Assembly (NCBI GenBank): GCA_002724245.1 | Contig: PBOG01000041.1 | Location: 1-59,838 of the forward strand | Length of the DNA stretch: 59,838 nucleotides | DNA from: Planctomycetaceae bacterium | GTDB taxonomy: Bacteria; Planctomycetota; Planctomycetia; Pirellulales; Pirellulaceae | Direction of reading: 5' to 3' | Shown: positions 55,004 through 58,426 of the stretch, in pieces | Layout of the letters: every line of letters starts with the position of its first letter | How positions within the stretch are numbered: the stretch's first letter is position 1 | Notes under the pieces: model-generated | The model's database searches: none | What the model saw: only the letters and a program-made list of their open reading frames with translations | Told to the model about the DNA's origin: nothing | Made by a program: the position numbers and the translations under genes

Positions 55004-56425
55004 ATGGAATGGTTCGCTGAGCACCAATGGCAACTGCTATTTCTTTGCGCGTACCTGGGCTTGCTCTCTTACCATTGCTGGATCGCCAATCGTGGCACCC
55101 ACAATATCGCAGATTACCTTATCGCTGGCCGTGGCCTCGGGGGCTGGGTCGTTGCTCTCTCTTCTTACGCAACTTTTGTCAGCACCAACACATTTATCGG
55201 CCAGGCTGGCAAAAGCTGGGACGTTGGGATTATCTGGTATTGCAAAGCGTTTGTGTTTGGGATGCTCTGCTATTTGTCCTGGTACGTCGTCGCTCCCCGA
55301 TTTGTCGAGCAGACTCGCCGATACAACTCGCTAACGGTTGCGGATTTTCTGGGGCATCGATTCAATTCGCCAACCGTACGACGCATTACGTCCGTCGTGA
55401 TTGTGGTCGCTTCTGTGCTTTATCTTGTGGCGGTCTACAAGGGTTCTGCAGTCGCTTTACAAGCATTCCTGGGACTGGACTATCGCCCCGCAGTGATCGT
55501 TATTTTCGTAGTCGTCACAGCATATACACTGGCCGGTGGATTCCGGTCGGTGGTCATGACAGATGCGGTTCAGGGGCTGTTGATGTTTGCCGGTGCCGTT
55601 GCCTTGATAAGCGTTGTCGTAAAACAAGGCGGGGGATTGTCTCAAATCCTGGAAACACTCCATACCCAAGACCCGGAATTGATATCCTGGCAAGGCAAGT
55701 TACCACTGCTCTCGATACTTGGGCTGGCTTTTGCCGGTGGAGTCAAATTACTCGTTGAACCGCGTCAACTTTCGCGTCTCTACGGTTTGCGAGATGATCA
55801 AGCGTTGCGCACAGCGCGTCTCGTAGCACCGATACTCATTATCGTCACCTATCTTTGCGTCTTACCGATCGGCGCACTCGCACACGCCTTGATTCCCCCC
55901 TTCGCAATCGACGATTCCGACAAGGTCATTCCCTACCTGCTCGGTACCGCACAAATCCTGGGTCCTGTTTTCAGCTCGTTTTTTCTGCTCGTTTTGCTGT
56001 CCGCCGCCATGTCGTCTCTCGATTCGGTACTTCTTGTCGCCGGGTCAACGATCAGCCGAGACCTGTTCAGTCAGTCAAACCATGAAACGAATAGTATCCG
56101 CATGACGCGCATCTGGCTCTTTGTGGTTTCCTTAGCCAGCATGGCTTTAGCACTCAACCCGATCGGCGATATTGTCGAAGTTACAGCGTTCTCGGGCTCA
56201 ATGTACGCGGCCTGTTTTCTGCCCACACTGGCCTTCGGGCTCTATTGGACGAAGGGGACTGAGGCTGGTGCCATCAGTTGCCTCGCAACCGGCTCGTTAG
56301 TTGCAATTGGATGGTATAGTGCGCGCAAGGCCGGCTGGACGGACTGGCACGAAGTCTACCCTTCCGTCACCCTCGCGCTGATCGCATTCGTCATGGTTTC
56401 ATTATCGACCAACAAGCGGCCCTAA
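55004..56425 (+). CDS. Sodium:solute symporter family (SSS) transporter
   Basis: 473 residues with about 13 membrane helices. Typical SSS motifs are present: DYLIAGRGLGGWVVALSSYA near residue 38, FIGQAGKSWDVG, LTVADFLGHRF, and AYTLAGGFRSVVMTDAVQG in the middle, which is the family's best signature. Members carry proline, pantothenate, sugars or carboxylates with Na+; the substrate is not evident. ATG start at 55004. It lies upstream of leuA on the same strand but is separated from it by a 460-bp leader with its own terminator, so co-transcription is regulated at most. Confidence 0.92.
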   Translation: MEWFAEHQWQLLFLCAYLGLLSYHCWIANRGTHNIADYLIAGRGLGGWVVALSSYATFVSTNTFIGQAGKSWDVGIIWYCKAFVFGMLCYLSWYVVAPRFVEQTRRYNSLTVADFLGHRFNSPTVRRITSVVIVVASVLYLVAVYKGSAVALQAFLGLDYRPAVIVIFVVVTAYTLAGGFRSVVMTDAVQGLLMFAGAVALISVVVKQGGGLSQILETLHTQDPELISWQGKLPLLSILGLAFAGGVKLLVEPRQLSRLYGLRDDQALRTARLVAPILIIVTYLCVLPIGALAHALIPPFAIDDSDKVIPYLLGTAQILGPVFSSFFLLVLLSAAMSSLDSVLLVAGSTISRDLFSQSNHETNSIRMTRIWLFVVSLASMALALNPIGDIVEVTAFSGSMYAACFLPTLAFGLYWTKGTEAGAISCLATGSLVAIGWYSARKAGWTDWHEVYPSVTLALIAFVMVSLSTNKRP

Positions 56426-56551: not shown

Positions 56552-56580
56552 TTGACCGCGTTGCTGAGGTCCACTAGTCT
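56552..56580 (+). promoter_or_regulatory. Possible leuA promoter
   Basis: TTGACC at 56552-56557 and TAGTCT at 56575-56580 are separated by 17 nt and resemble -35 and -10 boxes, the second only weakly. A start seven bases on would fall at or next to the leader ATG, giving a leaderless leader peptide. This is a guess from spacing. Confidence 0.3.
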
Positions 56581-56587
56581 AGACTGG

Positions 56588-56656
56588 ATGAAGCCTATGA
56601 ACTTTTGCTCGCACGTTTTGACACGACTTCTTTTGCCCGCCAACAGCGGGCTTTAG
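56588..56656 (+). CDS. leuL: Predicted leucine leader peptide of leuA
   Basis: A 22-codon ORF, ATG to TAG, encoding MKPMNFCSHVLT then RLLLPANSGL. Five of 22 codons are leucine, including three in a row (CTT CTT TTG, 56627-56635), and one is valine. It ends inside the RNA arm that can form the antiterminator (see the attenuator entry), which is where a leader stop codon should lie for ribosome-mediated attenuation. No strong Shine-Dalgarno precedes the ATG; ATG 56597 is an alternative start, with GGATGAAG upstream. It is expected to act in cis as a leucine sensor, the peptide itself having no role. Confidence 0.65.
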   Translation: MKPMNFCSHVLTRLLLPANSGL

Positions 56657-56722
56657 GGATTCTGTGCGACAACAAACAGTTGAGAAGATCCCTGAGGCAG
56701 ATTCAACCTCAGGGATTTTTTT
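56635..56722 (+). promoter_or_regulatory. Leucine attenuator: pause hairpin, antiterminator and terminator
   Basis: Three mutually exclusive pairings are visible. (1:2) GCCCGC 56635-56640 with GCGGGC 56646-56651, loop CAACA. (2:3) GCTTTAGGGAT 56650-56660 with ATCCCTGAGGC 56688-56698, eleven consecutive pairs including two G-U. (3:4) ATCCCTGAGG 56688-56697 with CCTCAGGGAT 56707-56716, the terminator, running into seven T's. A ribosome stalled on the three leucine codons would block 1:2 and leave 2:3 free, so leuA is read. A ribosome reaching the TAG at 56654-56656 would cover strand 2, so the terminator forms. The assignment is from sequence complementarity only. Confidence 0.72.
56688..56722 (+). 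terminator. Rho-independent terminator in the leuA leader
   Basis: A perfect 10-bp stem (ATCCCTGAGG / CCTCAGGGAT) with a 9-nt loop and a run of seven T's (56716-56722). It lies 160 bp before leuA and about 260 bp after the symporter gene, so it would stop both read-through and leader transcripts. Confidence 0.9.
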
Positions 56723-56884
56723 GTGCAATAACCACTATTTCCAATTACCACGAATTCCCAGCAGCCTTGCCAGTGCGCTGTATTACACCGGTAGTACCCG
56801 ATACGAATAAACCAACGCATGCGCGTGTTATTTGCGATTGAACCCTGTGTTGCGACTGCCACCCCTTGAGGTAAATCCAAAACG

Positions 56885-58426
56885 ATGAGCGATCCGAGAC
56901 CGATCAAGATCTTCGACACGACTCTGCGTGACGGCGAACAATCTCCTGGTGCCAGCATGAATCTTCAGGAGAAACTGGAGATCGCTCAAGCACTCATTGA
57001 CCTGAAAGTTGACGTCATTGAGGCAGGATTTCCAATTGCATCTCCCGGTGATTTCGAGGCCGTTCAGGAAATTGCCACCAATTTCCGTGGATCAACAATT
57101 TGCGGATTAGCTCGCTGTAACGATGCAGATATCGATCGCGCTTGGGATGCCGTCAAACTCGCCGCAGCACCGCGTATCCATGTGTTCCTGGCGACCAGCG
57201 CGGTGCATCGCGAATTCAAACTCCGAATGTCACAGGAGGAAATCCTCGAACGAACAATCGCGGGTGTCAAGCGCGCCGTAGGATACTGCGATGATGTTGA
57301 ATTCTCCCCTGAAGATGCCGCGCGCACTGAACATGAATTCCTCTGCAAGGTTGTCGAACAGGCAATCGACGCCGGTGCCACGACCGTCAACATCCCCGAC
57401 ACCGTTGGTTACGCAGTACCACAACAACTGGGAAGCACGATTAACATGCTTCGCAATAAGGTCCCAAACATTGAACAGGCCATCATCAGCATCCATTGCC
57501 ACAATGACCTGGGACTCGCAGTAGCAAACAGCCTGTCGGCCGTCGAACAAGGTGCCGGACAAATCGAATGCACGATTAACGGAATCGGTGAACGGGCAGG
57601 AAACTGTTCGCTCGAAGAAATCGTCATGGCTCTGCAGACTCGCGCAGATTACTACGACTGCACAACCAAAATAGAGACGCGTAGACTGGTCCCCACCAGT
57701 CGCCTGGTCTCTTCAATTACTGGCATAGAAGTTCAACGCAACAAAGCTATTGTGGGGCGCAACGCATTCGCGCATGAAGCCGGAATCCATCAAGATGGGA
57801 TGCTTAAAGAACGCACTACTTATGAGATCATGAGGCCCGAAGATGTCGGCTTCACCAAAACCGATCTGGTACTCGGAAAGCACAGCGGACGCGCCGCACT
57901 TGCAGATCGAGCCAAGGCGCTAGGCTACCATCTCAACGGCGAGCAACTCCTTGGGGTTTTTGAAGAATTCAAGAAACTGGCAGACAAGAAAAAAGAGGTC
58001 TATGACGGCGACATTGTTGCCTTGGCACAACAACAACTACAAATCACAAGTCGAGGCGAATGGCAACTGATTTCCTATGACCTGCAGTCCACGAGTACGG
58101 GTGAGCACCGCGTATGTGTGCATTTGCAGTGCGGCGACATCCAGAAAACAACGGAGTCCACTGATGGAGACGGGCCGGTTAATGCAGCCTTCTCCGCCAT
58201 CGAGGAAATCACTGGAATTAAGATGAAGTGCAAGGATTTTCAGCTACGCAGCGCAACGATCGGCCGCGACGCGCAAGGCGAGGCAACGATTGAAGTCGAG
58301 TATCAGGGCTCGAACTTTCGCGGGCGCGGAGTCTCCACCAACACAATGGAGGCCACCATCAAGGCGATTCTAAATGTCGTAAATCGTATCGCCGTTTCCG
58401 GCAGCGACAATAGCGCCGAAACATAA
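56885..58426 (+). CDS. leuA: 2-isopropylmalate synthase
   Basis: 513 residues, the standard length. It condenses acetyl-CoA with 2-oxoisovalerate, the first committed step of leucine synthesis. Signatures are FDTTLRDGEQSPGASM at the N terminus, SIHCHNDLGLAVANSLSAVE with metal-binding HxH, GIGERAGNCSLEEIVMAL and NAFAHEAGIHQDGMLK. The last ~120 residues form the LeuA allosteric dimerisation domain that binds leucine for feedback inhibition. ATG 56885. It is preceded by a leader with leucine codons and a terminator, which would add transcriptional attenuation to the enzyme-level control. No other leu gene is adjacent in this window. Confidence 0.98.
   Translation: MSDPRPIKIFDTTLRDGEQSPGASMNLQEKLEIAQALIDLKVDVIEAGFPIASPGDFEAVQEIATNFRGSTICGLARCNDADIDRAWDAVKLAAAPRIHVFLATSAVHREFKLRMSQEEILERTIAGVKRAVGYCDDVEFSPEDAARTEHEFLCKVVEQAIDAGATTVNIPDTVGYAVPQQLGSTINMLRNKVPNIEQAIISIHCHNDLGLAVANSLSAVEQGAGQIECTINGIGERAGNCSLEEIVMALQTRADYYDCTTKIETRRLVPTSRLVSSITGIEVQRNKAIVGRNAFAHEAGIHQDGMLKERTTYEIMRPEDVGFTKTDLVLGKHSGRAALADRAKALGYHLNGEQLLGVFEEFKKLADKKKEVYDGDIVALAQQQLQITSRGEWQLISYDLQSTSTGEHRVCVHLQCGDIQKTTESTDGDGPVNAAFSAIEEITGIKMKCKDFQLRSATIGRDAQGEATIEVEYQGSNFRGRGVSTNTMEATIKAILNVVNRIAVSGSDNSAET

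Follow-up and report, generated by a model that had tools for sequence, protein, structure and literature searches.

A predicted ribosome-mediated leucine attenuator upstream of leuA that recurs among Planctomycetes

The window, i.e., the whole stretch of DNA that was analysed (59,838 nucleotides; contig PBOG01000041.1 of assembly GCA_002724245.1, Planctomycetaceae bacterium), carries leuA, encoding 2-isopropylmalate synthase, at 56885-58426 on the + strand; the assignment is based on NF002086 (737.8 bits, cut-off 532) and TIGR00973 (699.4 bits, cut-off 598.7). A sodium/solute symporter-like gene is located upstream in the same orientation (55004-56425, +; best NCBIfam matches below cut-offs), and the regulatory element proposed to control leuA occupies 56552-56723, between the two genes. 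The next long ORF past leuA is on the opposite strand; thus, the switch seems to serve leuA alone.

A preliminary description, made from the sequence, had proposed a complete ribosome-mediated leucine attenuator at 56588-56722, and the parts that it listed are all present on the + strand. The leader ORF (56588-56656) has 22 codons, encodes the peptide MKPMNFCSHVLTRLLLPANSGL followed by a stop, and contains five leucines, with consecutive CTT CTT TTG codons (Leu14-16, 56627-56635) that the fold model marks as the predicted sensing codons. Hairpin 1 (GCCCGC-CAACA-GCGGGC, 56635-56640/56646-56651), recognized by folding, precedes strand 2 of the antiterminator (TTTAGGGATTCT, 56652-56663), which has the leader stop codon (TAG, 56654-56656) inside it and pairs with strand 3 (AGATCCCTGAG, 56686-56696) through 11 base pairs, two of them G-U, with one bulge. 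Alternatively, strand 3 pairs with strand 4 to generate an intrinsic terminator (56688-56722) with a 10-bp core (ATCCCTGAGG, 56688-56697; CCTCAGGGAT, 56707-56716), a 9-nt loop and a run of seven T (56716-56722); folding and covariation both point to these pairings. The start of leuA is >160 nt 3’ of the terminator. The true 5’ limit of the element lies further upstream than had been described, at a predicted promoter (56552-56580, +) with a -35 box TTGACC (56552-56557), a 17-nt spacer and a -10 box TAGTCT (56575-56580). A simple promoter/terminator scan, which has a loop limit of 8 and needs 9/12 promoter matches, overlooked both features. Transcription usually starts about 6-8 nt past the -10 box, and the leader ATG is 7 nt past this box; RNA polymerase would start at ~56587-56588, with the leader ORF probably translated from the very 5’ end of a leaderless transcript.

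The fold of 56588-56725 has a free energy of -50 kcal/mol compared with -32±3.9 for shuffled sequences (z = -4.6; 0/200 as good). Hairpin 1 and the antiterminator coexist in the fold of 56630-56703, so that a 1:2 hairpin excluding the 2:3 pairing is not seen in the window. The GCCCGC/GCGGGC hairpin itself is present as described (a GCCCG/CGGGC pairing can also be read by eye in L003, from a sister species); it does not block the antiterminator and would act at most as a pause hairpin. More generally, strand 2 prefers an upstream pairing in 68 of 128 leaders collected from relatives (see below), and the classical 1:2 hairpin does not appear to be a general feature.

The locus combines the features expected of a trp/leu/his-type attenuator: a Leu-rich upstream ORF, an intrinsic terminator before leuA and an antiterminator that shares strand 3 with it. 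Folding of the competing structures, a check suggested in the preliminary description, used a thermodynamic model in which the RNA was folded up to a point 14 nt downstream of where strand 3 begins, minus the bases covered by a ribosome whose footprint was assumed to extend 13 nt past the first A-site base. In this model a ribosome bound at the stop codon masks strand 2, while one bound at the control codons leaves it free. For the window, the probability that strand 3 is sequestered in the antiterminator is 0.976 with the ribosome at Leu11, 0.996 at Leu14-16, 0.65 at Asn19, 0.08 at Leu22 and 0.036 at the stop (0.875 at the stall and 0.037 at the stop by the strand definition used for the 128 leaders). 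The mean probability that strand 3 is held upstream in the 128 leaders is 0.73 when the ribosome occupies the first Leu of the run, 0.71 for the last Leu and 0.22 for the stop; it drops by >0.2 from stall to stop in 119/128 leaders and rises by that much in none, and shuffled linkers give 0.50 (stall) and 0.42 (stop). Stalling at CTT CTT TTG would, according to the model, antiterminate. With no ribosome on the RNA the antiterminator already forms with a probability of 0.87 in the window, or 0.89 with the fold begun at the ATG, and an untranslated leader should therefore read through; the corresponding mean for the 128 leaders is 0.57 and the family is mixed. In the classical behaviour of E. 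coli trp the opposite occurs when the leader is not translated.

To survey relatives, we used a detector that searches for a terminator and a short ORF ending 12-75 nt before it, the last 22 residues of which contain ≥4 Leu and are ≥22% Leu, plus an LL. The detector was applied to the 235 of 276 loci in which the LeuA N-terminus can be recognised and ≥250 nt of upstream sequence are available, reduced to 207 distinct upstreams by identity of the last 150 nt (59 of them shorter than 700 nt); close relatives remain in this set, and the counts do not represent independent events. A Leu-rich leader with a terminator occurs in 128/207 distinct leuA upstreams (126/205 without those reached solely via RNA model R2); the detector criteria were fixed with the first leaders already in view, and related genomes do not provide independent observations. 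The same detector set to any of the 19 other residues found 0 to 3 of 207. No hits were obtained on the antisense strand (0/207), on dinucleotide shuffles (0/207, one shuffle per upstream) or on two stretches inside leuA, which 155 and 143 of the 207 hold in full (52/207 have <750 nt of coding sequence for this control). The arrangement thus recurs, in support of the attenuator originally proposed. Loss of the leader ORF or of the pairings in close relatives, which the preliminary description had named as evidence against it, was not seen; the ORF and both pairings are present in the same genus (L002, L003), family and order and in other families of the class.

RNA models gave a second view of this recurrence. 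Model R1, built on 8 leaders, matches upstream of leuA, and on its strand, in 30/30 loci retained when 60 relatives were searched for LeuA (E ≤ 0.02 for 29 and 0.24 for one; 8 of the 30 are training rows) and a sense-strand match in 53/80 named loci at E ≤ 1. The RNA model begins just before the stop codon and lacks the Leu run, and the Leu content is therefore separate evidence. In its own genome the leader is found by model R2 at E = 8e-11, the sole other match being an antisense echo (E = 0.0014). An RNA-model survey of the phylum gave matches in 43/294 genomes, many of them weak, and the distribution given below is based instead on leuA positions. Altogether 73 distinct leaders, with peptides such as MHQNLLLPLLLLLLADDRP, MDTLLALLPLLLLDGRGP and MNQLTILLPLLLLAPARRRL, were collected in this way; a few (L010, L027, L084, L090) have no clear Leu-rich ORF at this position.

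By loci that were not deduplicated, the detector found the arrangement in 26/30 relatives, 22/27 loci of the window’s own order in the class survey and 52/80 named loci. Among other families of the class the counts were 16/18 (f21), 3/20 (f111), 7/14 (f112), 2/2 (f113), 1/1 (f114) and 3/3 (f115), and outside the class 2/22 (G088, G090), with a third (G170) recognized by a looser look. The detector missed 79/207 upstreams or, by non-deduplicated loci, 28/80 named loci and 20/22 of those scored outside the class. A promoter together with a Leu-rich leader is present in 15/79 misses overall, of which single cases may be due to chance (control: antisense 1/207, other residues up to 7/207). In f111 this applies to 11/17 misses (L189, L191, L192, L195-L198, L203, L204, L206, L207). 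The hairpin that follows the leader in the f111 misses is mostly tailed by CTTC or similar, without TTTT; judging from these tails, termination may be weaker or factor-assisted in this family. All four f112 misses viewed (L209, L211, L214, L216) contain an ORF with Leu codons together with a GGCCCCGGA/TCCGGGGCC hairpin near the leuA start; a clear T run is lacking, and this is possibly a translational variant. No Leu-rich short ORF was apparent in 15 of the 18 named misses viewed. Judging from this distribution, the arrangement may have been present in the ancestor of the class and lost in some lineages. Among records with unexpected titles, four labelled Candidatus Kuenenia (L075, L094, L109, L110) have leuA genes 65-69% identical to that of the window and fail the detector, and one labelled Alphaproteobacteria (L035) has a planctomycete-like leuA with a leucine leader; the titles may be wrong.

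Compensatory changes were evaluated in an alignment (A4) of 41 of the 73 distinct leaders, aligned without reference to structure. Partial or divergent leaders (Rhodopirellula-type and others in which strand 2 does not line up) were left out, and the counts hold for leaders of the A4 type; furthermore, the structures were taken from diagonals of A4 itself, which favours them over slid controls. The terminator pairs covary strongly: 92.0% of cells are paired, 7/11 pairs have changed on both sides, and there are 30 both-side-changed cells compared with 8.6 in shuffles (covariation 0.331 vs. 0.196; 0/500). For the antiterminator, 75.6% of cells are paired, with 31 both-side-changed cells vs. 20.7 shuffled and a covariation of 0.201 vs. 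0.157 (1/500), while the number of changed pairs (132/500) and the pair types (82/500) are not clearly above shuffles. Both conservation and covariation are weaker for the antiterminator than for the terminator, and a strict antiterminator scan overlooked leaders with an internal loop. A linker swap, which is independent of A4, gave 0.70 for own vs. 0.62 for foreign linkers, the own linker being better in 91/128 (p = 1e-6).

Codon content and start-site architecture bear on whether the leaders are translated. Between L001 and the sister-species leader L003, all five Leu are kept (two identical and three synonymous codons), while 10 of the 17 non-Leu codons are replacements. CUA accounts for 23.4% of 934 leader Leu codons vs. 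1.8% of 3679 leuA Leu codons, a 13-fold enrichment; the window’s own leader has no CUA. A promoter pattern (TTGACN-N16-18-TANNNT) is located upstream of 102/128 leaders, with a spacer of 17 in 84 (shuffled control, 1/128; reverse strand, 4/128). Of the 95 leaders with an in-frame ATG downstream of the promoter, 24 have the ATG 6-8 nt past the -10 box, forming a sharp peak; L068, L070, L055, L165 and L168 are among these 24. As this is the usual distance to the transcription start, up to 24 leaders, including that of the window, are probably leaderless, a number that represents an upper bound since L008 and L018 have long peptides in which an inner start codon is possible. A Shine-Dalgarno-like core is present at the first in-frame ATG in 10 of the other 71 leaders.

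A related arrangement was found upstream of cimA (TIGR00977, 648-665 bits for the 3 genes tested; cut-off 450), where a terminator preceded by an Ile/Val-rich leader (e.g., MTNSQMIPTNIAILGIIGDVVIIESLRA) occurs in 10/20 relatives (L143, L146, L147, L149, L150, L151, L156, L157, L159, L160). The terminators of the cimA leaders are mostly AGCCCTGA..TCAGGGCT-like. The Leu rule fits 1/20 cimA upstreams and the Ile/Val rule, which differs from it (5 of the last 18 residues, with a run), fits 1/207 leuA upstreams. This match between codons and pathway in leuA and cimA is strong support, at the sequence level, for amino-acid sensing. The cimA upstreams of the window’s own genome (L142) and genus (L148, L155) contain no clear Ile/Val leader, and any hairpin there is weak.

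The anatomy, conservation, amino-acid specificity, covariation and dependence of the modelled fold on ribosome position, all shown computationally, make it very probable that the element is a leucine attenuator maintained by selection. We are confident that it regulates leuA through ribosome-mediated transcription attenuation, with charged leucyl-tRNA as the signal. Given ample leucyl-tRNA, the ribosome would reach the stop codon inside strand 2 and mask this strand; strand 3 would then pair with strand 4, and RNA polymerase would terminate at the T run. Under a shortage of leucyl-tRNA, the ribosome would instead stall at CTT CTT TTG and leave strand 2 free to pair with strand 3, in which case the terminator would not form and leuA would be transcribed.

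We consider it improbable that the conserved terminator is real but governed by another sensor, such as an RNA-binding protein or a small molecule, with the Leu-rich ORF a by-product or serving another role. The ribosome-free fold already favours the antiterminator in the window and partly in the family, which could let a factor act independently of translation, and a binding protein has been proposed for the actinobacterial LEU element (available text of PMC1262725). Against this, Leu is the sole enriched residue, CUA is enriched among its codons, the cimA leaders switch to Ile/Val, the stop codon sits over strand 2, replacements between sister leaders spare Leu, and the window has no Rfam match at or above gathering score. 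An additional role in trans for a functioning attenuator, through the terminated RNA of ~135 nt or its peptide, is less probable again: short terminated leader RNAs are an expected product and the ORF is kept between sister species, but outside Leu the peptide is poorly conserved and there is no pointer to a target. Trans action of this kind has been proposed for trpL in Sinorhizobium. That the hairpin simply terminates a transcript from upstream and is preceded by an ORF by chance is very nearly negligible, since despite the symporter gene upstream on the same strand, the position before leuA, the ORF, its codon content and the promoter recur in many genomes (with zero hits in the controls), several times with visibly different sequence further upstream (by eye).

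The attenuator mechanism favoured here is already known, and its relationship to described systems differs from case to case. With the enterobacterial leu attenuator (leuL, RF00512), the planctomycete element shares a leader ORF with Leu codons, a stop over strand 2 and an antiterminator/terminator switch before leuA. CUA codons are used by leuL and are common to many planctomycete leaders, but not to the window’s own. In contrast to leuL, hairpin 1 and the antiterminator are not mutually exclusive and the leader is probably leaderless; there were also no RF00512 matches in the window’s own genome at E ≤ 0.001, while a control search was positive in E. coli. A T-box or riboswitch was considered as well and rejected, based on the lack of Rfam matches at gathering score (one chance match, E = 0.83).

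The preliminary description had likened the parts to those of known attenuators, including actinobacterial leuA leaders; the latter model does not apply. As presented in the available text of the source, the actinobacterial LEU element is a pseudoknot with its base stem on the leuA Shine-Dalgarno box, and classical attenuation was considered unlikely (PMC1262725). Leucine leaders of Streptomyces lividans are described as leaderless, with the leuA one lacking a typical Rho-independent terminator (PMC8079986, available portion). The LEU element thus shares with the planctomycete one a leader ORF with a Leu run upstream of leuA, leaderless in Streptomyces lividans, and differs in having, according to these portions, no typical terminator, where the planctomycete element has a U-tailed terminator and an antiterminator. 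For Corynebacterium ilvBNC (ilvB-II motif), the accessible parts of PMC11857589 and PMC10272879 describe a branched-chain leader peptide beside the transcript start and a choice between terminator and antiterminator, as predicted here. The Corynebacterium system differs in its target, ilvBNC, and in having an anti-antiterminator, which extends over the initiation site as well; the planctomycete targets are leuA or cimA, and their leaders lack a conserved first hairpin.

The suggestion that such an attenuator may be new for the phylum is consistent with the open-access titles and abstract starts, where no planctomycete leader-peptide attenuator appeared among the matches listed (subscription papers being outside this scope); the element is apparently undescribed in the Planctomycetota by that search. 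The ilvB-OMG motifs of various phyla have leader ORFs, and the main text, as available, does not contain the word Planctomycetota (PMC10272879). Planctomycetes are mentioned in the available text of PMC4833913 solely for leader genes close to structural genes. A 2010 survey stated, in its accessible part, that its authors knew of leader peptide systems demonstrated solely in Proteobacteria and Actinobacteria before their own Firmicutes case (PMC2965389); the planctomycete leaders would extend this known regulatory kind beyond the phyla named there.

Segregated transcription and translation have been claimed for planctomycetes (2014 work, as cited in the available text of PMC5394234 and PMC5287468). 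Since leader-peptide attenuation requires a ribosome close behind RNA polymerase, the attenuator would bear on this dispute, and it is of interest chiefly because it offers a ready test of whether transcription and translation are coupled in planctomycetes. Its recurrence in relatives would imply that ribosomes follow closely behind RNA polymerase in bacteria where this has been doubted, and if leuA read-through tracks leucine and leader translation, coupling exists at leuA. A joint reading of the data, which we offer tentatively and to which we give somewhat below an even chance, is that these leaders form an attenuator family with an early origin in the class Planctomycetia, separate from that of the proteobacterial attenuator, and with a leuA (Leu) and a cimA (Ile/Val) branch. 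Its two RNA states would be set only by the ribosome, often on a leaderless transcript, over the stop codon; an untranslated leader would read through, and upkeep of the family would reflect tight coupling of transcription and translation at leuA.

With the leaders as a guide, the control of leuA and cimA can be annotated from sequence in planctomycete genomes. Upstream of ilvB, hisG and trpE (30 upstreams each, with short-flank loci partly covered), no leader enriched in the corresponding amino acid was found, except in 1/30 ilvB upstreams (L280, genome G018), where a Val-rich short ORF (MSMVSVVAAGLVVRYSLMAMGIF) is located before a terminator-like hairpin.
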